A DNA stretch of 64,000 nt from Gemmatimonadaceae bacterium (GTDB taxonomy: Bacteria; Gemmatimonadota; Gemmatimonadetes; Gemmatimonadales; Gemmatimonadaceae). Under the pieces are notes generated by a model. That model searched no databases. It was given only the letters and a program-made list of their open reading frames with translations, and was not told where the DNA came from. Location of the stretch: assembly GCA_020852815.1 (NCBI GenBank), contig JADZAN010000024.1, positions 1 to 64,000 on the forward strand, given 5' to 3'. Positions 5,359 through 19,165 of this stretch are shown in pieces. The position numbers and the translations under genes are program-made. Position 1 is the stretch's first letter. The number at the start of each line of letters is the position of its first letter.

Positions 5359-5520
5359 CGCCCCGTGCCGGCAGTGCGTCGTGACCGGCAGTCGATGGTG
5401 ACGCGATCGCGTCGACGCTATCGCGTCTCGCCTAGACGGCAGATGACAGCCCCGCGTGCCGAAGGTCAGCCGTTGTCCGCTATCGCCTTGGTCCCGCGTC
5501 CCGTAGCATTCCGAAATGGA

Positions 5521-5857
5521 CCCCAGCCTTCGCTGGGGAGAGGATTGGACCCCAGCTTTCGCTGGGGAGAGGCTGGGCGCCAGCCTTCGCTGGGGAAAGG
5601 CTGGGCCCCAGCTTTCGCTGGGGAAAGGCTGGACCCCAGCTTTCGCTGGGGAGAGGCTGGGCCCCAGCTTTCGCTGGGGAGAGGATTGGGCGCCAGCTTT
5701 TTCGCTGGGGAGAGGCTGGACCCCAGCTTTCGCTGGGGAGAGGATTGGGCCCCAGCTTTCGCTGGGGAGAGGATTGGACCCCAGCCTTCGCTGGGGAAAG
5801 GCTGGACCCCAGCTCTCGCTGGGGAGAGGCTGGGCGCCAGCCTCCGCTGGGGAAAGG
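5521..5857. repeat. 12-unit array of a ~28-bp hairpin repeat
   Basis: Twelve head-to-tail units fill a 337-bp block. Each unit has a core CCCCAGC, then TTTC or close variants, then GCTGGGG: a 7-bp inverted repeat with a 4-nt loop. A 9-11 nt linker of the form AGAGGCTGGG or AGAGGATTGG follows. Read on the minus strand the loop is GAAA or GAAG. Units 3, 7 and 12 start CGCC instead of CCCC, and unit 7 has two extra T. There are no unique spacers, so this is not a CRISPR. Open frames through the block are a by-product of the 28-bp periodicity. Single or paired copies of the same core lie at 20898-20915, 43802-43819 and 43832-43849. The stretch 5359-5520 between the glycosyltransferase gene and the array shows no gene. 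Confidence 0.95.
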
Positions 5858-5900: not shown

Positions 5901-7475
5901 ATGCAAGGCGCCGATCTCCTCATGCGCTCCCTCGCCCAGGCCGGCGTGGAGCTGTGCCTGGCCAACCCGGGCACGTCGGAAATGCACCTGGTCAAGGCGC
6001 TCGATGCAGCGCCTGCCATGCGCTCGGTCCTCACGTTGCACGAGGGTGTGGCGAGTGGGGCCGCCGATGGATGGGGGCGGATGACGGGGCGGGCGGCGAG
6101 TACGCTGCTTCATCTCGGGCCCGGATTGGCGAACGCGCTGTCCAACCTGCATAACGCGCGACGCTCGGCGACGCCGGTGGTGAACATCGTCGGCGACCAC
6201 GCCACGTATCACCTGGCCAACGACCCGCCGCTGCACAGCGATCTCCCGGCACTGGCGCGCGCGTCGTCGGCGTGGGTGGAGACGGTCGCGACGGCCGAGG
6301 CGATGGCGGGAGCAGGGGCGCGCGCCGTGGCGGCGTCGCTGGGGCCGCCGGGGGCGATCGCGACACTCATCGTCCCCGCGGATGCGGCGTGGGGCGTGGT
6401 GGAGGATGCGAGGGGAGAGGCGGCGCTGCGCGCGGCAGCCCGGGCACCGGCTGTTTATGCCGGGACTGCTCCGTCAGACGCAACGATCGATGGCGTGGCG
6501 CAGGTGCTGCGTTCAGGTGAACCGGCGGTGATCCTCCTGGGTGGACGCGCGGTGTCGCCCGCCAACGCCGAGCGCGCCGGACGCGTGGCTGCCGCAACCG
6601 GGGCCAGGTTGTGCAGCGCGCCCTTCTCCGCCATCGCCCCGCGCGGCGCCGGGAGTGTGGCCACCGAGCGGCTCCCCTACTTCCCGGAAATGGTGCTGCA
6701 ATTGCTCGCTGGAGTGCGGCATCTCATCCTCGTGGACGCACCGGCGCCGGTGGCCTTCTTCGCCTACCCGGGACTTCCGGGGCGACTGGTGCCCGAGGGG
6801 TGCAGCGTGCATGTGCTGGCCACCGGGAGCGACGACGTCGTGGCGGCGCTCGATGCGCTGGTGGTCGCCTGTGGCGCCGAAGGGGGCGCCGCGCCGCGAG
6901 TGGCGCGCGCCGTCCCGCCGGTGGCCAGCGGCGCCATCACGCCGGCCACCTTCGCGCAGACCCTTGCCGCCACGCTCCCGTCCGGGGCCATCGTGTGCGA
7001 CGAGGCCATCACGAATCGCTTTCCGTCGTTGGCCGCCACCGCCGGGGCGGCGCCGCACGACTGGCTCGACCTCACTGGCGGGTCGCTGGGGCTTGGCATG
7101 CCGATGGCGCTGGGCGCCGCCATGGCGTGCCCCGGCCGGCGCGTGGTGAACCTGCAGGCGGATGGTAGTGCGATGTACACGCCGCAGGCGCTGTGGTCGC
7201 TGGCGCGCGAGGGCGTCGATGTGACGACGATCATCCTCGCCAATCGCCGGTATCGCATCCTGGAGTACGAGCTGATGCGATTGCAGCTGACCGACGCCGC
7301 GCGCGCCCGTTCCCTCACCGACCTCTCCACGCCGCCCATCGACTTCGTGCAGCTGGCGGGATCACTCGGCGTTCCGGCGGTGCAGGTGACGACGGCGGAG
7401 GGGCTGGGCGAGGCGCTGCAACGGTCGTACGCGACCCCTGGGCCGCAGGTGATCGAGGCGATGATCGTGGAATGA
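5901..7475 (+). CDS. Thiamine diphosphate-dependent enzyme of the acetolactate synthase/benzoylformate decarboxylase superfamily
   Basis: The ATG at 5901 gives a 524-aa protein; the frame upstream runs through the repeat array and is not real. The N-terminal PYR domain carries the TPP-activating glutamate (LTLHEGVASGAADGWGR, Glu about 48). The central domain is Ala/Gly-rich. The C-terminal PP domain has the Mg-TPP motif at about residues 415-445, starting ADGSAMYTPQALWSL and closing with the Asn of ILANRR; Ala replaces the first Gly of the usual GDG. Length and motifs fit decarboxylases and ligases of 2-oxo acids such as benzoylformate decarboxylase more than true acetolactate synthase, which is longer. 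The substrate is not determined. The stop overlaps the next start by 4 nt (ATGA). Confidence 0.85.
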   Translation: MQGADLLMRSLAQAGVELCLANPGTSEMHLVKALDAAPAMRSVLTLHEGVASGAADGWGRMTGRAASTLLHLGPGLANALSNLHNARRSATPVVNIVGDHATYHLANDPPLHSDLPALARASSAWVETVATAEAMAGAGARAVAASLGPPGAIATLIVPADAAWGVVEDARGEAALRAAARAPAVYAGTAPSDATIDGVAQVLRSGEPAVILLGGRAVSPANAERAGRVAAATGARLCSAPFSAIAPRGAGSVATERLPYFPEMVLQLLAGVRHLILVDAPAPVAFFAYPGLPGRLVPEGCSVHVLATGSDDVVAALDALVVACGAEGGAAPRVARAVPPVASGAITPATFAQTLAATLPSGAIVCDEAITNRFPSLAATAGAAPHDWLDLTGGSLGLGMPMALGAAMACPGRRVVNLQADGSAMYTPQALWSLAREGVDVTTIILANRRYRILEYELMRLQLTDAARARSLTDLSTPPIDFVQLAGSLGVPAVQVTTAEGLGEALQRSYATPGPQVIEAMIVE

Positions 7476-8644
7476 CACCCACGGCTCCGCGCGCGCAGCA
7501 CCTGCTCGGCGTCTGGAATCCGAGCTACGACGCCGATGCCATGTCACAGCACCTCCAGGTGCTGTTGCAGCATGCGCGCACGTATCGGTCGAGCGGCGCC
7601 TCCGGTGATGACGGCGAGGTGTACGTGTGGTGGGGAAAGGTGCGCTCCAGCAACCGGCAGCAGCCGCTGGCGCACCTCGACCAGATTCTCGCGCTCGACG
7701 CCGCACTGCAGCACGAGCGCGCACGCGAACTCCACCTCTACCTCACCGACTATCGCTCGTTGTACGTGGCCCACGTCGCCGAGATCACGGCCGACGACGT
7801 GCTGGAGGACGACGAGCAGGAACATGTGCCCGAGTACTATCGGCGTAATCGGCTCGCGTGCGATTGCTGGTTCAAGCTGTTCGACATTCGTCGTGTAGTC
7901 TCCGAGGACACGCTGGCCGTCATCAGTGAACTCAAGCAGTTGCGGAATGCGCGCTACCACGACCGCCCGGTGTCGCTGTACGGCGGCATGGTGGATCTCC
8001 CGCTGCTCGTGTGGCGTGACGACGACGTGCGCTGGTTCGATCCGGACTTCCGCGAGCGCTACACCGACGGACGCTTCTGGGCCGAGTTCGATGCGGAGCA
8101 GGGGGGAAACGCGGCGATGCAGGGCGAGCTCCGCGACCATCGGTTCGGGGCGGTGTTGTGGAATGCGACCGATCCCGCAGCGCGCTGCTTCATTGCCTCG
8201 GCGGAACAGATCTTTCGCGCGCACCATCGAGACGCGGCGTTCGACCTGTCGCCCGTGGCCGTCAACCTGGCGCGTGCGCTGGAGCTGCAGGTCAATCGCG
8301 TGCTCCGTCAGGCGTTGCTGCGCGCGCCGGAGTCGCTGCGGTGGCACAATGTCGACGGGGTCACACGCGACCTGAGCGACGGCGGCAACTGGACACTTGG
8401 CGTGTTGGCAGAGGCGATAGGCTCCGATGGTGCGCGTGCGACGTGGCTACGCGACCACCTGCGCAACGGCTCGTGGTTTGCCGGCTCGCTCCCGGCGATT
8501 CTGCGCGACGTGGGTGAGCTTCGCAACGCGGCGGCGCACACCGAACGAGTTTCGCCGCAGGATGTGGCGCGCATGCGCTCGCGACTGGTGGGGGTGGGAT
8601 GTTCGGGGGCGTTGGTGGAATTGGCGGGGGTGGGGGTGCTGTGA
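7472..8644 (+). CDS. Uncharacterised protein with HEPN-like C-terminal region (candidate defence effector)
   Basis: The 390-aa protein starts at ATG 7472, overlapping the previous stop by 4 nt. Residues about 10-130 look beta-rich (LLGVWNPSYD, GEVYVWWGKV, LHLYLTDYRSLYVAHVAEI). This recalls small PUA/EVE-like modules, but that is only an impression. The C-terminal 130 residues look helical and contain GELRNAAAHTERVSP, an R-x4-H motif of the HEPN superfamily. A second R-x4-H (QLRNARYHDRP) occurs near residue 165. HEPN domains are commonly RNases in toxin-antitoxin and antiphage systems. It converges on the restriction gene res 84 bp away, but its own promoter is shared with the TPP gene. Function is unproven. 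Confidence 0.55.
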   Translation: MTPTAPRAQHLLGVWNPSYDADAMSQHLQVLLQHARTYRSSGASGDDGEVYVWWGKVRSSNRQQPLAHLDQILALDAALQHERARELHLYLTDYRSLYVAHVAEITADDVLEDDEQEHVPEYYRRNRLACDCWFKLFDIRRVVSEDTLAVISELKQLRNARYHDRPVSLYGGMVDLPLLVWRDDDVRWFDPDFRERYTDGRFWAEFDAEQGGNAAMQGELRDHRFGAVLWNATDPAARCFIASAEQIFRAHHRDAAFDLSPVAVNLARALELQVNRVLRQALLRAPESLRWHNVDGVTRDLSDGGNWTLGVLAEAIGSDGARATWLRDHLRNGSWFAGSLPAILRDVGELRNAAAHTERVSPQDVARMRSRLVGVGCSGALVELAGVGVL

Positions 8645-8728: not shown

Positions 8729-11700
8729 TCACCCCAGCTCCCCCAACTCTGCCAACGCGAGCACCTGCGGAATGTCGTTCGGGTTCCGCGCCATGCGGAA
8801 CGCCCATCGCCCATACCTCCCGTCGGCGTTGACCGCCTTCACCCAGCGTTGCGCGGCGGCCTCCTTCACCTCGTCCAGCGGGTCGTAGCCCTTGGTCTCC
8901 AGGATCAGGTGCGCAACGGGATCGGTATTGAGCCGCAGGATGAAGTCGGGCCAGAACTCGTGCGACTGTCCGTCGAGCTGATACGGAATCGCGAAGCCGA
9001 GTCCTGAGTTCTTCACGAATGCGCGCACCAGATGATGCTGGTCGAAGCGCTGCGCCGCGGCCTGCTCCCACTTCGTGGTGTCGGCGACGACGAAGTTCAC
9101 GTGGCTGTGCTGCACCGCGAAGGTAGGCTTGCTGCTCCAGAAGTCCACATCGGCGGTCGATCCCTCCTCGCGCCCCGCGACATAGCGCGGCAGTTCCATT
9201 GGCTCACCCTCCGCGACTTCGGGACGAATGCCATCGAGGAGGCGCGAGCGCATGTCGGAGTAGAAGGAGCCGAGGAAGGCGTCTTCCGCCTCGTACTCCC
9301 CCTGCGCTTCGATGCGCGTCTGCACGAACTCCTCCACGATGTGGTACATCTGCGGAAAGAGCTCGTGTGCGGGGGCCTTGCTGGGGTCGGCGCTGAGATA
9401 GGTGCGTGTGAGGTCGCGGGCAAGCGCGAACATCCGGCTTTGCAGTCGCTGCGAAGCGCGATAGCTCGCGAGCGTGATCTCCTTCACGGTGCCCACGCCA
9501 AACGTCGACGGGACACCTGCCGTGTTTGGTATGAAGGTTCGCATGACCGCCGCCGGCGGAATGCGCATCGGGTCCAGCACCAGCGGCGCCACTGCGTCCC
9601 AGTCGACGACGATCTTCCGCTGGATCACCTGGCGGTACCACTCCACGCGCGGGAACCGAATCTCGAACGCAGCCCGATCGGGGAGTGCGTATACGTGCGT
9701 TCGCCTGGTGGGTTGAGGTGCTGGTGCTCCGGCCGTCGCCTTGAATGGGATCACCTCGAACGGCACACCCAGCACCTGCGCGACTTCCTCTGGCAGCAGT
9801 CCATCGTCGCCGGGCTCGTACGACACGCGCCGTAGCCCACGCCCCACCACCTGCTCGCACAGGAGCTGCGACATGAACGGGCGCAATCCCACGATATGCG
9901 TCACGGTGTTGGCGTCCCACCCTTCGGTGAGCATGCCGACGCTCACGATGCAGCGTACGTCGCGTCCAGGCGCTTCGAGTGGTCGCTCGAGCTTGTGCGC
10001 GAGTGCCTCGAAGCCATCGGGATACAGCGGCCTCCCCTGGCTGTCGCGTGGCCACTCGCGCTTGCCAATGGTATCGAGCGTGAAGCGCATCCATCGCACC
10101 TCGTCGCCCTTGGCGCCGTCCATCTCCACCTCGTCCACCACCTTGGTGTCGACGCGGATCGTGTTCACGACGCCATCGCGGTTGCGAAAGAATTCCAACG
10201 ACGACTGCGGCACGCCTGGCGGGGCGTTGCCGCTGGCGAGCCATTCATACGCGGCGCCGGCAATCCGCGTGTTCTTGCAGACGAGGATGAAGACCGGCGG
10301 GCGCTCGATCCCCGCCGTGGTCCACCGGTCGCATTCCTCCGCGTAGCTCCCCGCCATGAGGGTCAGCGGTACGTCGGCGTGCTTGAGGATCGCCTCCGGC
10401 TTGGGGCTTCCCTTCTTGCTCCCCCGCTCGGCGGATGTGAGCTGGTCGGTGATGAAGCGCCAGAGATTGAAATACTTCGCGCGATCGAGCCCGCTCGTGT
10501 CACGCAGCGCGAGCTGCGGGATCTTCACCAGCCCGCTCTCGATGGCGTCGATCAAGCCGAACTCGCTCACGACCCAGGGGAAGGGGCGGGCCGTCAGCTG
10601 CCCCACGCGCCCCAGGAAGTAGGGCGTCGCCGAGAGGTCGAGGCAGAAGTTGATCCCGCGCAGCTTATGGATCTTGTCGAGCCCCTCGATCCAGACCGTT
10701 GCTTCCTTGAAGAAGTCCTCGTCGTCACCTTCGCCAAGCAGGTCCTGTTCCTCACCGTCGGGATCAGGGCGTCGGATGCGATAGGCGTGGTGCGCCTCGT
10801 CGTTCATGACGAGGATGTTCTGCTTCCCGCCCACGGCGCGCCCCAGTACGCGCTTCACGAAGGCCGTGTCACTCTCGACGTACTCTGTCGAGCGAATGCG
10901 AACCGACTTGAGCGTGCCATCGGGATGCAACTCCGGTTCACCGATGACCTCCACGCCGCCAGAGGCAACGTGTGCCTCGAACGCCTCGAGCGTCATGTAG
11001 CGAGAACCACGCGCCGTGGTCGTTCGCTCGCCGATGATGATCTTCTCCTGGCGCACCTCGGCGACCCCCGCGCGCACCACGCGGGACGACACGCCCCCGG
11101 TGCCAGCCGGCGCCTGCGTTGCCAGCACGTGCCAGTTGGTCACCAGCACGCGGCCGCGGGCCAGGAGCGGCATGAGGTGCGCCGGCACGAGGTCGCGCGT
11201 GCGATAGAGCGATGCCTCGCCGGCGAGCGGATCGAGTTCGCGAAGGCGATCGCGGATCGTCAGGTTGGGAGTGACGATGAGGACCACGTCGCTGAATCGT
11301 CCGTCGGCGCGGTCGTTCACCTTGTTGAGGATGCTCCACGCCGCAAGCATCGCCATCACCGTCGACTTCCCCGAGCCGGTCGCCATCTTGCAGGCCAGGC
11401 GCTCGAAGCCGGTGATGCCCTTGGCGCGCTGCTCCTCCGAGACTTCCTCGCGCGGCACGTCGATGCCTTGCAGGAAGTCCGACCGTGCCTCCTTGAGGAA
11501 GATCACCGTCTCGGCGGCCTCCAACTGCGCAAAGAAGAGGCGTGTCCGCCGGTCGGGGGAGCGCCAATGTTGCAGCAGGTCGTACGTGGTGCGCGTGACC
11601 CCCGGGTAATCCTCGGCGCGCCAGCGGCGCACGCTCTCGCGGATGATGTTGACGAGGACGAGTTCGTAGCCGCGTTCGTACTCGCTCAGCTTGCGGATGA

Positions 11701-11863
11701 TGCCGTCGTCCTCCCATGGGTCGCGCTGGTCACGCGGCTGGAAGACCATGGCGGGGCGGCGGCCGTCCTTGAGTTGCGGCGTGGCGCCCTCCTGGATGAA
11801 CCAGTACTTCGACGGTTCATCGTAGGGCGGATTCTGGATGGGTTGGGCGACTTCGAAGGACAT
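8729..11863 (-). CDS. Type III-like restriction enzyme subunit (Res helicase-nuclease)
   Basis: The 1044-aa protein is a superfamily 2 helicase: motif I ATGSGKST (residues 161-168), motif II DEAH (355-358), motif III SAT (411-413) and motif VI VGRGLRR (673-679). Near the C terminus, DFILRLNT followed by LILETKG forms a PD-(D/E)xK-type nuclease motif at about residues 965-985. This architecture matches Type III Res subunits, which translocate and cut after converging on unmodified sites together with Mod. The mod gene lies upstream on the same strand, with four small genes between them. A 179-bp gap separates it from fic, so it may have its own promoter. Confidence 0.9.
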   Translation of the reverse strand: MSFEVAQPIQNPPYDEPSKYWFIQEGATPQLKDGRRPAMVFQPRDQRDPWEDDGIIRKLSEYERGYELVLVNIIRESVRRWRAEDYPGVTRTTYDLLQHWRSPDRRTRLFFAQLEAAETVIFLKEARSDFLQGIDVPREEVSEEQRAKGITGFERLACKMATGSGKSTVMAMLAAWSILNKVNDRADGRFSDVVLIVTPNLTIRDRLRELDPLAGEASLYRTRDLVPAHLMPLLARGRVLVTNWHVLATQAPAGTGGVSSRVVRAGVAEVRQEKIIIGERTTTARGSRYMTLEAFEAHVASGGVEVIGEPELHPDGTLKSVRIRSTEYVESDTAFVKRVLGRAVGGKQNILVMNDEAHHAYRIRRPDPDGEEQDLLGEGDDEDFFKEATVWIEGLDKIHKLRGINFCLDLSATPYFLGRVGQLTARPFPWVVSEFGLIDAIESGLVKIPQLALRDTSGLDRAKYFNLWRFITDQLTSAERGSKKGSPKPEAILKHADVPLTLMAGSYAEECDRWTTAGIERPPVFILVCKNTRIAGAAYEWLASGNAPPGVPQSSLEFFRNRDGVVNTIRVDTKVVDEVEMDGAKGDEVRWMRFTLDTIGKREWPRDSQGRPLYPDGFEALAHKLERPLEAPGRDVRCIVSVGMLTEGWDANTVTHIVGLRPFMSQLLCEQVVGRGLRRVSYEPGDDGLLPEEVAQVLGVPFEVIPFKATAGAPAPQPTRRTHVYALPDRAAFEIRFPRVEWYRQVIQRKIVVDWDAVAPLVLDPMRIPPAAVMRTFIPNTAGVPSTFGVGTVKEITLASYRASQRLQSRMFALARDLTRTYLSADPSKAPAHELFPQMYHIVEEFVQTRIEAQGEYEAEDAFLGSFYSDMRSRLLDGIRPEVAEGEPMELPRYVAGREEGSTADVDFWSSKPTFAVQHSHVNFVVADTTKWEQAAAQRFDQHHLVRAFVKNSGLGFAIPYQLDGQSHEFWPDFILRLNTDPVAHLILETKGYDPLDEVKEAAAQRWVKAVNADGRYGRWAFRMARNPNDIPQVLALAELGELG

Positions 11864-12042: not shown

Positions 12043-13191
12043 TCAATCTTCGTACGTGACGTCGAGGATTGGCTTGCTGATGTACGACATGGGGGACACG
12101 CCCGCACGCTTGGTCAGGATGCCGAGCGCGGTCAGGTGATTCAGGTACTTCTGCGCCGTTGGAAACGAGATGTTGAGGATTCGCTGGGCGTCGGCTACGC
12201 GCACCGCCGGCGCGATGAACAGCGAATCAACGAGCGCTAGCATCTTCATCGCCGCGGCAGCAGAAAGCCGCTCTGCGAAGTCCTTCTGCAGCGCCAGCAA
12301 TCGATCACATCGCCGCATGGCATCGTCGGCCTGTTCCTTCACCCCGCGTAGGCAGAAGCCGATCCAGTCTGCCCACGCGCCATCGGTGCTGACGCGGAGC
12401 AAAAGATCCATGTAGGTGTCCTTGTTGCGGTCGAAGTAGGCGCTCATGTAGAGCCACTGTCCCGAGAGCTGGCACCATTCCTCGATGCATAACGCGAGTA
12501 GCAGTCGCCCCACTCGTCCGTTCCCATCCATGAATGGGTGGATGGTCTCGAACTGATAGTGGGCAAGGAAGGCGTCGACGAGGGGATCGCGCTGGCGCGG
12601 TTGCTGGAGGAAGTGCTCGAAGTTCTCGAGCAGATCTCCCAACTGGTGCGGTGGCGGGGGAACGAAGCGAGCGGGCTTCCCGATCTGGTTTTGTCGGGTG
12701 CGAAACTGACCGGGGTTCTGGTCCGAACCGCGCACGCCGTCCATCAGCGTGTGATGCAGCTGGCGGATGAGGTGTCGCGAGAGAGGGAGCCGGTCGGTAC
12801 CGCTGCCGCGAAGCTGCAGCGCGCGCGCATAGTTGAAGACCTCCCGCAGTGGGTTCTCTCGGTCGGTCTCGCGCGCGGGGATCGTTGGCTCCAGGTCGAA
12901 GAGCACCTGCTCCTCGGGCTCGGTATAGGTCCCCTCGAGGCTGGAGGACCGCAGCGCCTCGCGGCGCTGCAGCGGTCGCATCAGGAGCGTGGGGTTGGGG
13001 AGGTGCTTACCCACGCCATCCAGTCGCGCCAGGGCCGTCCGGGCTTCGAGGAGCATTGGCCACAGATCGGCCGGCCACTCCCATGTCGGCGGAAGGAAAT
13101 CCGGCAGAAAGGCCGCGCTGAGGTCAGGAAACCCCGTCAGCGGAACCAGCTGTCCCGGGCTCGATTTGCCAAACCTTTCCAGTGCAATCAC
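12043..13191 (-). CDS. Fic family protein (probable AMP transferase) with inhibitory helix motif
   Basis: The 382-aa protein has the full Fic core HPFMDGNGR at residues 218-226; its His is the catalytic base, and the motif is intact. An N-terminal S-x3-E-G inhibitory motif (SSSLEG, about 82-87) would block ATP in a class II Fic. The C-terminal part (about 310-382) ends in a winged-helix-like region (RVADAQRILNISFPTAQKYLNHLTAL split over two helices), as in many Fic/DOC-type regulators. Family members usually AMPylate proteins. It lies between the trio (13438-15046) and res, with an AT-rich palindrome 62-85 bp upstream. Confidence 0.9.
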   Translation of the reverse strand: MIALERFGKSSPGQLVPLTGFPDLSAAFLPDFLPPTWEWPADLWPMLLEARTALARLDGVGKHLPNPTLLMRPLQRREALRSSSLEGTYTEPEEQVLFDLEPTIPARETDRENPLREVFNYARALQLRGSGTDRLPLSRHLIRQLHHTLMDGVRGSDQNPGQFRTRQNQIGKPARFVPPPPHQLGDLLENFEHFLQQPRQRDPLVDAFLAHYQFETIHPFMDGNGRVGRLLLALCIEEWCQLSGQWLYMSAYFDRNKDTYMDLLLRVSTDGAWADWIGFCLRGVKEQADDAMRRCDRLLALQKDFAERLSAAAAMKMLALVDSLFIAPAVRVADAQRILNISFPTAQKYLNHLTALGILTKRAGVSPMSYISKPILDVTYED

Positions 13192-13251
13192 TTGGCGCCT
13201 GATTTTCAGAGGAGGGCGAGGTGCAGAAATCTTTAACGCAGGAGGCGTATC

Positions 13252-13277
13252 TTAAAATTCAACGGTCGAAATTTTAA
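13252..13277. promoter_or_regulatory. AT-rich perfect inverted repeat upstream of fic
   Basis: TTAAAATT and AATTTTAA are separated by 10 nt, a perfect 8-bp arm pair in otherwise GC-rich DNA. It lies 61 bp upstream of the fic ATG and within the 246-bp gap after the trio. Its position suggests an operator, with the C-terminal winged-helix-like part of Fic as one possible binder; that is inference. Confidence 0.5.
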
Positions 13278-13437
13278 TCAACCCTGCCCGCGTTCAATTT
13301 TTCTCCATCTCTCGCACCGCCACAGATTCACTCCCCCGATCATCAGTCACCTTCACCTGCCCCCCCGGCAGCAGAGGCGCTCGATCGTGGCGAAACAGGC
13401 GCCGCGTTCGATCCAACGGTCTGGCATTCACCGCGCG

Positions 13438-13878
13438 CTACGGTGTGCCGGCTCGTGGTCGCGAGAACACGAGTTGAACGCGGCCATACACCTTGCCCTC
13501 GAGTCCGCGAAGCTCATGGGCGATGTCGACGTGCTGCCCGAGCTTGCTGGTCCACATACCGCTCCGGAGCTGTCTGGCCGCGTGTGTCGGCATCCCCCTC
13601 GCGTTGACGAAGAGCGCGACCTTCTCGCTGTCGGGTTCCAGCGCGTCGGAAGCGCACTCTTGATATCCATGGGCGGCGAGCATCGCGCAAAACGCCTCGA
13701 CCGTCTCCAGGCGCTCAAGTCCCTCTGGCCAGTAGCCGGAGCGCGCCGGCCACCAGAATCTGGTATTGTCGCCTACTGCCCAGGCGATGCAGTTGTACTG
13801 AGGAGTTGCGGGACTGGTAATCGCGAAGGCCGACGTCGCGAGACCCGGAAAGGTCTTGCTGACATCCTCCGCACTCAC
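13438..13878 (-). CDS. Small Cys/His protein, DUF7689-like (possible cysteine-protease fold)
   Basis: GTG 13878 overlaps the upstream stop by 4 nt (GTGA) and yields 146 aa; an ATG at 13905 would give 31 nt of overlap and is less likely. Conserved-looking features are YNCIAWAVGD (Cys30), a WWP then YWPEG pair, PTHAARQL (His99), WTSKLG and DIAHEL (Asp118, His121). An Asn-Cys near the N terminus followed by a His about 70 residues later is the order of papain/NlpC-like enzymes. The family name DUF7689 is recalled from memory, and catalytic activity is inference. It is the third member of a coupled trio inside the restriction island. Confidence 0.55.
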   Translation of the reverse strand: MSAEDVSKTFPGLATSAFAITSPATPQYNCIAWAVGDNTRFWWPARSGYWPEGLERLETVEAFCAMLAAHGYQECASDALEPDSEKVALFVNARGMPTHAARQLRSGMWTSKLGQHVDIAHELRGLEGKVYGRVQLVFSRPRAGTP

Positions 13879-14303
13879 GCGCCATACCCACGCTGAGCGA
13901 GCCACGCGAGCCAGTCAGCGGTCATGTCGATGAGGCTCCCACGGTGCGCGTCCGTCACCGGATCCGCCCCGGTGAGGGCCGTGAGCGCATCAAACCAGAA
14001 ATGCGGCTCGTCTCGCAGTGCTTCCGCGATCAGCGGGATGACAGCCGGCCCGAGACCGATGATGCGCTGATAGGCAGGGTGGAGCACGATGTCCGAAAGC
14101 GACGAGGAACACACCGTGTCCGCCTTCCACGTTGCGGCCAGGTCTGCGAACAGTGCATCGAGTGGAGTCCGCGACACCGCTGCGTTGTACTGCGCGTCGG
14201 CTAGCCGCAACTGCATGCGAATCAGCGCCGACTCGGGTCCAACGGCGAAGTCGGGGTACGAGGCAACGTAGGCAGGCGGGGCGGCGAGCGAGACAGTGCT
14301 CAT
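13875..14303 (-). CDS. Small helical protein of unknown function, second of the coupled trio
   Basis: The ATG at 14303 overlaps the stop of the TIGR04255-like gene (ATGA), giving 142 aa. The C-terminal half reads as two or three helices: HPAYQRIIGLG, AVIPLIAEALRDEPHFWFDALTALTG, then MTADWLAWLAQRGY. This resembles HEAT-like helical pairs, and similar tails (HxAYQxIIGMG...HWFxALxxITG) occur in small proteins of accessory regions. It has no catalytic motif, so a binding or antitoxin-like role is possible but unproven. Confidence 0.55.
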   Translation of the reverse strand: MSTVSLAAPPAYVASYPDFAVGPESALIRMQLRLADAQYNAAVSRTPLDALFADLAATWKADTVCSSSLSDIVLHPAYQRIIGLGPAVIPLIAEALRDEPHFWFDALTALTGADPVTDAHRGSLIDMTADWLAWLAQRGYGA

Positions 14304-15046
14304 CGAAAGAGCTCGAGACACTTGGGGGTGAGACTGCGGAAGAAGACTTGGTTCTTCGCGGCACGGAGCGATTCCAACATGCGCCAGATTTCGGCGCCTT
14401 CGACCTTTCCTATGCGATTCAATTCGATGTCGAAGATCACCGGTAGGCGGTCCCTTGGGTCAACGCTCACATCGATCGTCTGATTGATGATCGCGACGGC
14501 GCCGATTTGCTCGAACGGGATGGTCAAACGCATGAAGAAGGCGGCCAATCCCTGCGGAATCCCGGTCCCGACCTCGGGAATGGTCAGGAAGTACTCCTTG
14601 AAGTCCGAGAACGGCAGCGGAACCTCGATTCGGTTGATGTAGCGCAGAGCAAGACGGGAAACGTGTGGCACACCGGTGGCCTCCGCATACGCTTCCCATA
14701 TGTCGCGCGCTTCGGCAACCAGGGACCCCCAGTCGCGATACGGTCGAAGGCGACTGATCGCGATTCCATCCGTTCGAGCCTGCACGACCTGTGTTGCGTC
14801 TGCGCTCTGAAACCGGTACCCGTTTTGAGTCGCACTCGTTCCTCCGGGCCGTGGAACGACCCCGGTTGGGGTGAGTGCGAACTCTGAGCGGACGGCGTGC
14901 ATGATCGTCCTGCCGGGATACCGATTCGCGATGCGCTCTCCGAACTGGCTGAGTGCGTCCAGGTCGATCGGGAATTCCGCCGACACGCCGAAGTCGATCA
15001 GCGCCTCGGTCAGCGGAGCGTGAGGCAGCGTCTCGTAATCAGCCAT
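14300..15046 (-). CDS. TIGR04255-like protein, first of the coupled trio
   Basis: The ATG at 15046 gives 248 aa beginning MADYETLPHAPLTEALIDFG, the characteristic N terminus of the sporadically distributed TIGR04255 family. A longer GTG start at 15106, directly after the mod stop, is possible but puts 20 extra residues before the family start. The middle contains RLALRYINRIEVP and the C terminus a helical EGAEIWRMLESLRAAKNQVFFRSLT. Members are scattered in accessory genome regions and have no defined activity. It follows mod by 60 bp on the same strand and is coupled to the next gene by 4 nt. Confidence 0.7.
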   Translation of the reverse strand: MADYETLPHAPLTEALIDFGVSAEFPIDLDALSQFGERIANRYPGRTIMHAVRSEFALTPTGVVPRPGGTSATQNGYRFQSADATQVVQARTDGIAISRLRPYRDWGSLVAEARDIWEAYAEATGVPHVSRLALRYINRIEVPLPFSDFKEYFLTIPEVGTGIPQGLAAFFMRLTIPFEQIGAVAIINQTIDVSVDPRDRLPVIFDIELNRIGKVEGAEIWRMLESLRAAKNQVFFRSLTPKCLELFR

Positions 15047-15106
15047 GTGAACAAACGTACGAGAGTGGCGCTGTGGTGCCAACTCGGCCGCAGAGTGCCG
15101 CAACAC

Positions 15107-17809
15107 TCACTTCTCCACCTCCCGCACCACCATCAGTTCATTCCCCCGATCATCAATAACCTTCACCGCCACCTTCCCCGTCGCCCCCGGCACAAAGGGC
15201 GCGCTCACCGTCCCCGCCAGGTGCTCCCACACCGCGTCGTCATACGTCCCCTTGAGCGCGCGCTTGAGGTTGTCCCAGGCGCTGGTGCGCGGGAAGAAGG
15301 CCTGGTCCACGTGGAATGACAGCTCGTTGTAGTTGGTGTCGAGCAGCCACGCCGGCACATCGTCGCCGTCGCGGCGGTCGAGCTCCATGGTGACGGGGTC
15401 GAAGACGTCGAGGCCGCGGAACTCGACCTCGTACTGGGTGGGCTCGCCGGCCTTCTGCTTGGCGGCTTTGCGCAGCACCACCTCGGGGAGCCCGCAGACG
15501 GAGAAGATCTGCGACGAGCGCATGTTCTTGAGCAGGTCGCCCATCATCACGTCGGGCGTGGCCTGCACATAGGTGGCGGGGATCCCGGTGACGTCCTCGC
15601 AGTGCTCCACCAGCTCGCGCGCGTGCGGCTGGATGGCGAAGCCGATGACGTAGAGGTGCGTGTAGTGCTTGGCGTTGGCCTCGCGCGCGGCCTCGTACAC
15701 GAGCTTCTCACTGATGGCACCGCTCTCAGGGCCGAAGACGATGGCGACGTCCTGTCCATCGGCCTTGGCTTCCGCCGAGATGACCTTGGAACGGGGCGGC
15801 CGGATCTGCGTGAGCGTGGCCGACTGGTTCCCCGCCAGCCGCAACACGGGGCTCTTGCGCAGCACCTCCAGCATGCGCTCCACGAACGACCCGTGCGACT
15901 CGGCCACGTTAGGCAGGCCGGAGTCCTCGATGCCATCCCCTTCCCAGTCGACCGGGGTGGGGATGGTGGCCTCGAAGACGAAGGGGCCGCTCACGCGCGT
16001 GATCCCTTTCTTCTCTTCAGGGCGATCGACGAGGACTTCCTGCGCCGGCGGTTCGTTGTTGGCGATGGACTTGAGGGTGATGTGCGGAACGATGCCGCCC
16101 ACCTCCTCACCCTTGCTGTTCTGCTTGCGCTTGTAGGTGAAGCCGCCGGCCGGGCCGCGCGCGTCGTCCTTGAGTTCGTACCAGGGGTAGGTGGCGGTGA
16201 GGAGGCGCTGCCGAGCGAGGGCGAGCGGGACGCGCGAGGTGTCGATGGTGATCCAGCGGCGCCCCCATTGCTCGGCGACGTAGGCGGTGGTGCCCGAGCC
16301 GCAGGTGGGGTCGAGGACGAGGTCGCCGGGGTCGGTGGTCATCAGGAGGCAGCGCTCAATGATGGACGTCGCCGTTTGAACCACGTAGTAGCGCGTCTCA
16401 CCAAAGCCCGTCAGTTTCGCGTCGGGCCAATACGAGTTGATCTCGCGAAAGGGAAACTCGTCACGATATGCCTTATACATCAGGGACTTGCCGACCGCAT
16501 GAAGCCGTCCTGCTTCCCGCAATCGTTCAATCCCCTCCCTCGAGGTCGACCAACCTCGAGCACCGGGCGGATAGAACGTCTTTCCGCCTAACTCAATCGG
16601 GAAGCGAGAGTTCTCGCTTCCTGTTTGTGAAGACAGGTCATTCAACTTTAGGATTCTGCCTTCGGGAATCGGGTCGAGCCTCAGCTTCTGTCGAACCGTT
16701 AGGTCGATAACCTCACCATCGGTGGTCTCCACACAGATGTAACGTTCGTTCGGATTCTCGAATGGGTCTCGGTCGACAAAGACGGAGCGATACCTGATGG
16801 AGTCGAAGTCCTTGGAGTACCAGAGGAGATAGTCATTGACGGTTGCAGGAAGCTGGCTCGTCTGGCCTTGCGTCTTCTTGAACGCCAGAACCATGCAACT
16901 GTTCTCCGCCCCAAACACCTCATCCATCAACTCCCGCACGTGGTGCAGATTCTCATCCGAGATCTGCACGAACACGCTCCCACTTGGGCTGAGCAGCTCC
17001 CTCGCCAGCAGCAACCGGTCGCGCAGGTACGTCAGATACGAGTGCAGCCCCAGCTCCCACGTGTCGCGGTACGCCTGCACCATCTCCGGCTCCCGCGTCA
17101 TGTCCCCGTCGTCGTTGTGCTTCACGTCCCGCTTGCGCACAAACGGCTGGAAGTTGCTCCCGAACTTCACCCCGTACGGCGGGTCGATGTAGATCATCTG
17201 CACCTGCCCACCCAGCCCCTCGTAGTGCAGCAGCGAGTTCATCACCACCAGCGAATCGCCGAGCACCATGCGGTTCACCCAGCGGTCGCGATGCTCGTAG
17301 GCGCGCAGCGTCTGGTCCACCACGCTGTGGCGCGGGTCGCTGAACAGGTCCAGCTCGGCCTGCTGCGTGCGTTCATGCCGCTGCACGCTCTCCAGGATGG
17401 CCTTGGTGCTCAGCCGCTCGTGCACAAAGAGCGGGAGCGTGGGCACATCGAACGAGAGGCGCTCGCCCTTGCCGGTCCAGTTGAGGAAGGGGCGTCCTAG
17501 CGCGGCGAGCTTGTCGGCGGCGGCCCTTGCCTCTTCCAGCGAGGTGGCGTTGCGGATGGCGGCGATGAGCGCTTCGCCCTGTTCGCGCGCCGGGTTCTGC
17601 GCATCCCAGTCGAGCGATGGCGAGAGCGAGGAGTCGTAGCGATAGGTGGCCGGCGCCTTCTTCTTGCGGAACTGTGCCTGCGTCCCCACGTCGGGGCGCA
17701 GCGGGGAGTCGGCGGTGGGGTGCGAGTAGTTCTGCGTGGCGGCGGCGCTGCCAGGCTTGGGAGCCTTGGGCTTGATGGCGGCGCCGGATGACTTCTTGCG
17801 AGCAGGCAT
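15107..17809 (-). CDS. Type III-like DNA methyltransferase (Mod)
   Basis: The 900-aa protein has the beta-class order of motifs: catalytic motif IV DPPY at residues 209-212 (MIYIDPPYGVKF), then the AdoMet motif DPTCGSGTT at 500-508. The region between the motifs is where target recognition normally sits. A long C-terminal extension of about 350 residues follows. Mod normally modifies adenine in the recognition site and is required for Res cutting. It is 25 bp downstream of a PLD-family gene and 60 bp upstream of the TIGR04255-like gene, so at least part of the island is one operon. Confidence 0.92.
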   Translation of the reverse strand: MPARKKSSGAAIKPKAPKPGSAAATQNYSHPTADSPLRPDVGTQAQFRKKKAPATYRYDSSLSPSLDWDAQNPAREQGEALIAAIRNATSLEEARAAADKLAALGRPFLNWTGKGERLSFDVPTLPLFVHERLSTKAILESVQRHERTQQAELDLFSDPRHSVVDQTLRAYEHRDRWVNRMVLGDSLVVMNSLLHYEGLGGQVQMIYIDPPYGVKFGSNFQPFVRKRDVKHNDDGDMTREPEMVQAYRDTWELGLHSYLTYLRDRLLLARELLSPSGSVFVQISDENLHHVRELMDEVFGAENSCMVLAFKKTQGQTSQLPATVNDYLLWYSKDFDSIRYRSVFVDRDPFENPNERYICVETTDGEVIDLTVRQKLRLDPIPEGRILKLNDLSSQTGSENSRFPIELGGKTFYPPGARGWSTSREGIERLREAGRLHAVGKSLMYKAYRDEFPFREINSYWPDAKLTGFGETRYYVVQTATSIIERCLLMTTDPGDLVLDPTCGSGTTAYVAEQWGRRWITIDTSRVPLALARQRLLTATYPWYELKDDARGPAGGFTYKRKQNSKGEEVGGIVPHITLKSIANNEPPAQEVLVDRPEEKKGITRVSGPFVFEATIPTPVDWEGDGIEDSGLPNVAESHGSFVERMLEVLRKSPVLRLAGNQSATLTQIRPPRSKVISAEAKADGQDVAIVFGPESGAISEKLVYEAAREANAKHYTHLYVIGFAIQPHARELVEHCEDVTGIPATYVQATPDVMMGDLLKNMRSSQIFSVCGLPEVVLRKAAKQKAGEPTQYEVEFRGLDVFDPVTMELDRRDGDDVPAWLLDTNYNELSFHVDQAFFPRTSAWDNLKRALKGTYDDAVWEHLAGTVSAPFVPGATGKVAVKVIDDRGNELMVVREVEK

Positions 17810-17834: not shown

Positions 17835-18980
17835 TCAGGCGTTGGCCCAGTTTACCCGGGCGAACAGGCGCTGGCGATATGCGCGGTCGGTGGCGGTGCG
17901 GAAGAGGATGCGGGAGTGGTGCCGCTGGTTCTGCGAGCCCGCTCTTCTAAGGAGTTCGACCTGACAGGCGATGAGCCATTCGTCGCGAAAACGTCGATCG
18001 GAAAGAAACGAGAAGTCCCGGAACGCGATGGACATCGGCGGCTCGTCGGTCTCACCGCGTTGCGCCCGGAATTGAACGTCGTCGTAGACGCGCCCGGGTG
18101 CAGACGCGTCGACCACATCGGCGTTGGCTCGAACGAGTAGCATGGCGCCGGCGATCCCGAGCGTGCGATCGTCGGCGATGTAGGGCCGCAATACCCATCG
18201 TGAGTTGATGGTGACTGGGATAAAGAACGTCCCCTCGCGAATGGTGAGGACAAATCGCTTGTCGCCGTTCTCGACGCCAAGAGCCTCCACTAGCGTGGCT
18301 ATGGATTCGAAATAGGACTCCGTCCAGCGTCGGGAGGGAGCGCCGGCGAGGTAGGCAATCAGCCGGTCTTCCGAGTCGGCCTTCCGATCGATGTCGGCTT
18401 CGGCGACGATGAGGCTAGCTGCACGCGCAGAGGCAGTCTCCGGCGCGGCCAACGGGATTGTTCGGAGCGTCGGCGTAGTCTCGCTTTCAGGGAGCGCAGG
18501 AAGGGAGGCTTCGAACTCGAGCAGCTGTTCGCGAACGATGGGGCTCGCGTGCATCCACAGAAGGTCATACCACTCCCTAATCTGTCGGACCTGACCTTCG
18601 TCTGAGACTACCGCTCCCACCTCCTGTCGCTGGAACAGCCCGCGCTCCGTGAAGTTCGCCGACCCAAACATCGCCAAGGTGGGCGACAGCGCGACCTTGG
18701 CATGCAGGTCGCGACAGTGCCGCACCTGCTGGGCGTGCTCGTGAATGAAGTCGAGAATCTCCGTCCTCGCCGGCCGCGCAAACGCACGCAACCACTCCTC
18801 CGCGTCGGTCACGAGGCGAAACTTGGGGGCGCGTCTGACCAACTCGCGAAGGATGGAAACGGACAGGTACGGCGCCGCGAGATCCAACTCGCCCGCGTCC
18901 GCGACCTCGCGCAACGCCCGCTCGAACGGCGACGCTCCCTTCCCCTCTTCCCCCGGGAACCTCAATAGCAGCTGCATCAT
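17835..18980 (-). CDS. Phospholipase D-superfamily protein (probable nuclease)
   Basis: The start is ATG 18980, with GGAGG 9 nt upstream; a frame extending to 19259 would cross the promoter palindrome and has no support. The 381-aa protein contains one PLD motif at residues 93-112: DLHAKVALSP then MFGSANFTERG (His93, Lys95, Asn109, Glu112). A single HKD motif means it would act as a dimer, as in the Nuc/BfiI nucleases. The remaining 250 residues are unfamiliar and may bind DNA or partners. It is the first gene of the leftward restriction island and sits 25 bp before mod. Confidence 0.8.
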   Translation of the reverse strand: MMQLLLRFPGEEGKGASPFERALREVADAGELDLAAPYLSVSILRELVRRAPKFRLVTDAEEWLRAFARPARTEILDFIHEHAQQVRHCRDLHAKVALSPTLAMFGSANFTERGLFQRQEVGAVVSDEGQVRQIREWYDLLWMHASPIVREQLLEFEASLPALPESETTPTLRTIPLAAPETASARAASLIVAEADIDRKADSEDRLIAYLAGAPSRRWTESYFESIATLVEALGVENGDKRFVLTIREGTFFIPVTINSRWVLRPYIADDRTLGIAGAMLLVRANADVVDASAPGRVYDDVQFRAQRGETDEPPMSIAFRDFSFLSDRRFRDEWLIACQVELLRRAGSQNQRHHSRILFRTATDRAYRQRLFARVNWANA

Positions 18981-19165
18981 CCTCCCGATCCTCCTCCCGC
19001 ACACATGACATGGCCGAGCCGAGTGCCCAGTCGCGACTGCGCGGCACGTTGCGGCCAGAACAACCGACTGTCCAGCCCGCCCAGCGCCGCCGTGCGCCCC
19101 GCTCGTCATCGCCCCCGCGACACCCCGCGAGGGAATCGCCGACACCCGCCCCCTGAAGTTGCACA

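Follow-up and report, generated by a model that had tools for sequence, protein, structure and literature searches.

Organisation of the three-gene locus

This locus raises the question of what three small, overlapping genes do between the mod and fic genes of a type III restriction locus. They lie in the window, by which we mean the whole 64,000-nucleotide stretch of DNA that was analysed, and the first-pass annotation had taken them for the genes of one stoichiometric complex, possibly a sensor, a scaffold and a protease or nuclease, regulated by its mod-fic surroundings. On a single strand the order is a PLD-family protein, mod, the trio, a SoFic-like Fic protein and a BPTD_3080-family res (Table 1). 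The three genes do overlap by 4 nucleotides each (ATGA, then GTGA), with coordinates, strand and frames as first proposed. The first gene matches the NCBIfam model TIGR04255 at 117.5 bits over model positions 2-251 of 252 (cut-off 30) and the third matches the Pfam model PF24738, DUF7689, at 134.8 bits over positions 2-117 of 118 (gathering cut-off 22.6). The second, which we call MID, has no family match in Pfam, NCBIfam or PADLOC, and none of the three proteins has a match in PADLOC, the 2023 version of which holds the systems described or proposed by then. Rfam and tRNA searches gave no feature within the 64-kb window, and a scan for promoters and terminators gave signals at or below chance.

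Table 1. Features of the trio, of its host restriction locus and of the related fusion proteins.
Feature	Position	Strand	Match or remark
Gene 1, TIGR04255 family protein, 248 aa, exchangeable front gene	14300..15046	-	NCBIfam TIGR04255
Gene 2, MID, 142 aa, undescribed family, constant DUF7689 partner	13875..14303	-	
Gene 3, DUF7689 protein, 146 aa from GTG, predicted papain-like cysteine hydrolase	13438..13878	-	PF24738
ATGA stop/start overlap, genes 1/2	14300..14303	-	Sequence; recurs in other loci
GTGA stop/start overlap, genes 2/3 (likely)	13875..13878	-	Sequence
Degenerate mod 3'-end copy downstream of the trio, in frame VKVTDDRGSESVAVREMEKN*	13301..13380	-	Insertion footprint
mod, type III-like DNA methyltransferase (host locus)	15107..17809	-	PF01555; PADLOC MTase_III 501 bits
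Fic protein, SoFic-like, further cargo	12043..13191	-	PF02661; PADLOC SoFic 331 bits
res, BPTD_3080 family restriction endonuclease (host locus)	8729..11863	-	NF046055 996 bits, cut-off 800
DUF7689-MID fusion proteins	L128:2845-3843 and L129:63-1058		Bacteroidales plasmids

At the junction between TIGR04255 and MID a 4-nucleotide overlap is found in 35 of 37 other loci (27 ATGA and 8 GTGA), a count to be read knowing that a TGA stop after A, G or T suffices to create one and that the script chose the start nearest to the TGA. Since such overlaps arise easily by chance, it is their recurrence across phyla, together with a frame that, in 36 listed loci, stays open from the overlap start as far as the MID domain, that constitutes real evidence of coupling. 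The MID/DUF7689 junction is looser, being exactly -4 in 24 of 79 loci and mostly an overlap of 7-14 nucleotides or a near-abutting arrangement in the remainder. For the window, the sequence makes the 4-nucleotide overlap at this second junction likely, short of proof because an alternative upstream GTG at 13905 would give a DUF7689 protein of 155 aa.

MID and DUF7689 form an obligate pair

A scan of a one-genome-per-species collection found 248 places encoding relatives, and the best 80 of the 248 were kept. By their titles these come from about a dozen phyla, including Nitrospirota, Planctomycetota, cyanobacteria, proteobacteria and Myxococcales as well as Caldilineaceae, Acidobacteria, Verrucomicrobia and others. 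MID stands directly upstream of DUF7689 in all 80 of these best loci, and 37 of them have TIGR04255 as the gene directly before MID. The same holds on viral contigs, where each of 19 DUF7689 loci has MID and 7 have TIGR04255. Of the 298 genomes analysed from the phylum of the window, 6 have DUF7689 and 36 have TIGR04255; all 6 DUF7689 carriers have MID immediately upstream, and in 4 of them TIGR04255 completes the trio. The pairing of MID with DUF7689 is thus obligate and the pair is a fixed unit, and co-occurrence outside this locus, on which the first-pass annotation had staked its reading, is found among the best 80 loci, as the pair in all of them and as the whole trio in 37. These sets were chosen by DUF7689, so what they establish is that DUF7689 keeps MID; the reverse need, of MID for DUF7689, does not follow. 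Indeed, two loci (L011 and L012) carry a MID-like domain and no DUF7689 match in the available stretch.

Furthermore, in two Bacteroidales plasmid proteins (L128 and L129) DUF7689 and MID are fused into one chain in reversed order. The fusion protein of B. xylanisolvens has a lipoprotein-like signal at its start, as read from the sequence. The idea of one functional unit is supported by pairing, fusion and recurring overlaps, although TIGR04255 is not obligatory. Because TIGR04255 is absent from part of the loci and also heads other cassettes, the fixed unit is the MID-DUF7689 pair. As for the proposed stoichiometric complex of the trio products, the coupling and the fusion suggest that one may form.

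Some further observations concern the pair. The L128 fusion protein begins like a lipoprotein and its gene lies near a MAC/perforin-domain gene, and in one genome the pair is tandemly duplicated (L016:2097-4021), a TGA interrupting the second DUF7689. Kinship of MID with a phage repressor was considered and set aside, since the PDB sequence match reached E 0.2 and was treated as chance; membrane anchoring of MID was also rejected, its N-termini being mostly not hydrophobic.

DUF7689 is a predicted papain-like hydrolase

Cys30, His99, Asp118 and His121 of DUF7689, numbered from the GTG start, are placed in the papain-like order in which they had been read. Across 82 relatives N29, C30, H99, R102, W109, S111, K112 and D118 never vary, and H121 is kept in at least 90% of these. 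The AF2 model, built from the 82-sequence alignment, has a mean pLDDT of 95.8; in it a helix begins at Cys30, and His99 and Asp118/His121 lie on the strands that follow. Foldseek against the PDB gave a best E of 0.083, to a Josephin-type cysteine protease, with no significant match, and a BFVD fold search gave no match at E 0.001 or better. In VIA-align papain-like cysteine hydrolases take nearly all of the top places, with Z at most 5.8. Among them are NlpC/P60 3h41 (Z 5.8, 91 residues, 3.4 A), AvrPphB 1ukf (Z 5.8, 120 residues, 3.6 A) and the papain-like toxin 9l5u (Z 5.1); other matches are MepS, CwlO, the T6SS amidases Tae1 and Tae3, the ComA peptidase domain and a transglutaminase. As these matches are consistent and the residues conserved, though each match is weak alone, the model makes membership of the papain-like fold class likely; with Z at most 5.8 and no significant Foldseek E, the fold class is supported and the family is not. 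In Pfam only PF24738 is listed for DUF7689 up to E 1, by HMMER, which has limited sensitivity to remote NlpC/P60 kinship, and a PDB sequence search gave no convincing solved-structure relative of TIGR04255, MID or DUF7689. The invariant residues and the fold matches of the model thus agree with the Cys-His papain-like protein that the first reading had predicted, and its alternative suggestion of a nuclease finds no support, no nuclease signature being present in the trio.

No signal peptide was seen in the DUF7689 protein of the window. The Bacteroides fusion retains the Cys, the His and the counterpart of H121, whereas its residue at the D118 position is Arg, which is why we take Asp118 and/or His121 as the candidate third catalytic residue. 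Since this fusion looks exported and carries the Arg, not every DUF7689 member need act inside the cell.

The front gene varies between cassettes

In loci without TIGR04255 the front slot is filled in part by unrelated small families, namely a (about 119 aa, FDYIKSN), b (about 225 aa, TDIRPVF), c (about 90 aa) and d (one case); in many others, ORF-based calls identified no front gene. The substitute families that were searched have no Pfam or NCBIfam match above cut-off. A remote kinship of the front families with each other found no support in the two pairs compared by hhalign, b with TIGR04255 and b with a. Searches for the front families on plasmids and for TIGR04255 in the phages collection gave no match. 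On a MID+DUF7689 tree obtained by a quick method, the front type changes 17 times on the best tree compared with a shuffled mean of 34.9. Well-supported branches force few of these 17 changes, hence repeated exchange of the front gene is, from these sequences, likely rather than demonstrated. The AF2 model of the TIGR04255 protein has a pLDDT of 95; a function by fold was not adopted for it, the best matches (guanidino kinases at Z 9.0, also TBP and AdoMetDC-like folds) being taken as a common alpha/beta arrangement.

TIGR04255 also occurs without MID. Behind it there is then a different middle gene, encoding for instance an HTH protein or a member of a 'WDGYGA' family, and after that a third gene; TIGR04255 cassettes elsewhere are often triples. 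Known toxin domains are found in the third position, with RES in L164 (1.1e-11), Zeta_toxin in L169 on a Vibrio plasmid (3.1e-12) and HEPN in L170 on a Thermus plasmid (4.2e-6); each of these occurs once in about 40 TIGR04255 cassettes, whose third genes mostly match no family. Moreover, a Fic gene takes the third position in L203, behind front family b and a middle gene. A broader reading, which we regard as quite possible and still short of probable, is that TIGR04255 and the unrelated front families head undescribed combinatorial three-gene cassettes of the form X-Y-Z. The front and the variable middle component would control an effector (RES, zeta, HEPN, Fic or DUF7689), and DUF7689 would represent a class, new in bacteria, of cysteine-hydrolase toxins that act inside the cell. 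Separately, L152, L158, L161, L163, L166 and L168 share a recurring, uncharacterised type of third gene, placed behind TIGR04255 and a variable middle gene; its product has a 'QGD'-like motif early on and a 'CD' motif further along, and no match in Pfam or PADLOC.

The trio as cargo between mod and res

Just downstream of the trio the 3' end of mod recurs as a degenerate, in-frame copy that closes with a stop. Its positions 13301-13357 are 82% identical over 57 nucleotides to the mod 3' end at 15111-15167, and the local alignment scores 74, where the best of 300 shuffles reached 28. Among relatives of the same mod, the interval between mod and res is empty in plasmids of Mycobacterium, Shinella and Agrobacterium. 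Elsewhere it holds DUF3800 (L224, L225, L228 and L240), an AAA_21 ATPase (L227), two HEPN-nucleotidyltransferase (HEPN-MNT) fusions (L230), a HepT-like protein (L234) or proteins without assigned family (L226 and L236). Because the interval of the relatives is empty or filled otherwise, sequence comparison indicates that the mod/res slot (window 12043-17809) is variable and here has the trio and Fic as its cargo. Like toxin-antitoxin systems, the cassette has a mobile, patchy kind of spread (6 of 298 genomes, and the footprint), and known toxin domains are found in its sister cassettes. The proposed regulation by the mod/fic context is accordingly not upheld: most loci have no adjoining restriction genes, and the trio has the look of cargo that was inserted.

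The surroundings hold other features. The PLD-family protein just upstream of mod (17835-19007) is weakly similar to the defence proteins DrmC and DpdK. An HP0729-family-like protein with a Pua-like domain (7475-8644; 109 bits, below the equivalog cut-off of 250) is convergent with res. At 5517-5857 a 28-bp GC-rich unit occurs 12 times in tandem; the array is open in several frames, so that the ORFs listed over it are doubtful.

Proposed function and alternative explanations

The explanation that we favour, and consider somewhat more probable than otherwise, is that the trio is a transferable tripartite effector cassette, most likely of the toxin-antitoxin or abortive-infection kind, with DUF7689 as the effector. 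Indeed, the trio has the adjacent, co-translated small genes with conserved pairing by which toxin-antitoxin modules are recognised. DUF7689 would be a small, probably cytoplasmic papain-like cysteine hydrolase, with Cys30 as nucleophile, His99 as base and Asp118 and/or His121 as third residue. It may act on a protein or peptide-like target of the cell by cleavage, deamidation or other hydrolysis, and such catalysis would be toxic. MID, the obligate partner made by coupled translation, would most likely hold, position or inhibit DUF7689, and TIGR04255, the exchangeable front component, would most likely regulate or sense; inhibition may thus lie with MID and/or TIGR04255. The trio has been inserted as cargo downstream of mod, in a slot that in relatives is either empty or occupied by other cargo, often of toxin type. 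Its role would be one in defence, to which the restriction genes near some of the trios and the cassettes in phage-like contigs, both described below, point indirectly.

We give a distinctly lower probability to a non-toxic regulatory or processing module, in which DUF7689-MID would be a protease, amidase or transglutaminase-like enzyme for an ordinary task and TIGR04255 a ligand-binding regulator, the proximity to restriction genes reflecting merely that sporadic genes gather in islands. That most loci have no defence neighbours, that papain-like folds have many non-toxic functions, that the Bacteroides fusion looks exported and that the TIGR04255 model weakly resembles known alpha/beta folds would all suit such a module. 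It accounts less well for the sporadic spread within the phylum and the insertion footprint at the window locus, or for the RES, zeta, HEPN and Fic cassettes and the HEPN-MNT cargo in the same mod/res slot. Nor does it fit the presence of the cassette in phage-like contigs. In two viral contigs it lies between terminase and portal-like genes, named by reading their sequences; of these L130 has front family a and L144 has TIGR04255.

A dedicated accessory of restriction-modification (RM), e.g. a guard triggered by inhibited restriction or a control of Mod/Res, appears improbable. The type I RM enrichment near the trios argues for it. Within 1.5 kb of TIGR04255-type trios there are 8 type I specificity subunits and 7 HsdR N-terminal domains in 84, along with 5 N6_Mtase; the 84 proteins from beyond 5 kb include one MTase_I, and their top families contain no specificity subunit. 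For type I RM as a whole this gives 15/84 near and 1/84 far (Fisher p 0.0003, proteins of the same locus not being independent). Moreover, five loci (L048, L049, L082, L116 and L120) have the trio flanked by HsdR and HsdM, all on one strand, and the window trio itself sits in a mod/res slot. Against this, most of the best 80 loci have no RM neighbours, relatives of the same mod/res pair are without the trio or have other cargo, and the copies in phage-like contigs come without RM. The RM-neighbour label needs 7 changes on the MID+DUF7689 tree. A large 'FRG' cluster of neighbours was left unused, being apparently in part a single-linkage artefact of repeat proteins.

Finally, the fixed three-protein complex of the first-pass annotation (a sensor, a scaffold and a protease or nuclease, under regulation from the mod-fic surroundings) is very unlikely, for although the coupling and the papain-like enzyme are confirmed, TIGR04255 is not constant, a nuclease signature is lacking and the genomic context is not conserved.

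Relation to known systems and significance

DUF7689 shares with NlpC/P60, AvrPphB, Tae and papain-like contact-dependent toxins the Cys-His-polar order, the Cys at a helix N-terminus and the His on the following strand. Unlike the NlpC/P60 relatives it has no sequence similarity to solved structures, and it has its own invariant motif, HxxRQL..G.W.SK.G...D..H, and a linked partner, MID. Hyperpromiscuous antitoxins and combinatorial Panacea/DUF4065 networks have been described (PMC8832971, PMC10440598). The trio resembles such type II toxin-antitoxin modules in its small overlapping genes, its sporadic and mobile occurrence and one component with several partners. It differs from type II toxin-antitoxin systems in having three genes and no described antitoxin domain, and any neutralisation among its proteins is putative. 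RES, HEPN, zeta and Fic proteins are found as third components of cassettes that begin with TIGR04255 or another front family; to judge by predicted fold and chemistry, DUF7689 is no relative of theirs. A precedent comes from Vibrio cholerae, in which a type I RM operon contains TgvAB, a GmrSD-type system of modification-dependent restriction (PMC11411939). The window trio is likewise an independent module carried within an RM operon; unlike TgvAB, the trio has no nuclease-like domain and is mostly found outside RM loci. A literature search, for which subscription papers were mostly beyond reach, found no paper naming TIGR04255 or DUF7689.

Three families without described function, TIGR04255, MID and DUF7689, are hereby joined into one testable unit. 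The mod/res slot of this restriction lineage is also shown to be an exchange site for toxin-type cargo. If the toxin or defence reading is true, a papain-like hydrolase would act inside bacteria under the control of a two-protein partner set, and one front component would serve several effectors, comparable to the Panacea network.
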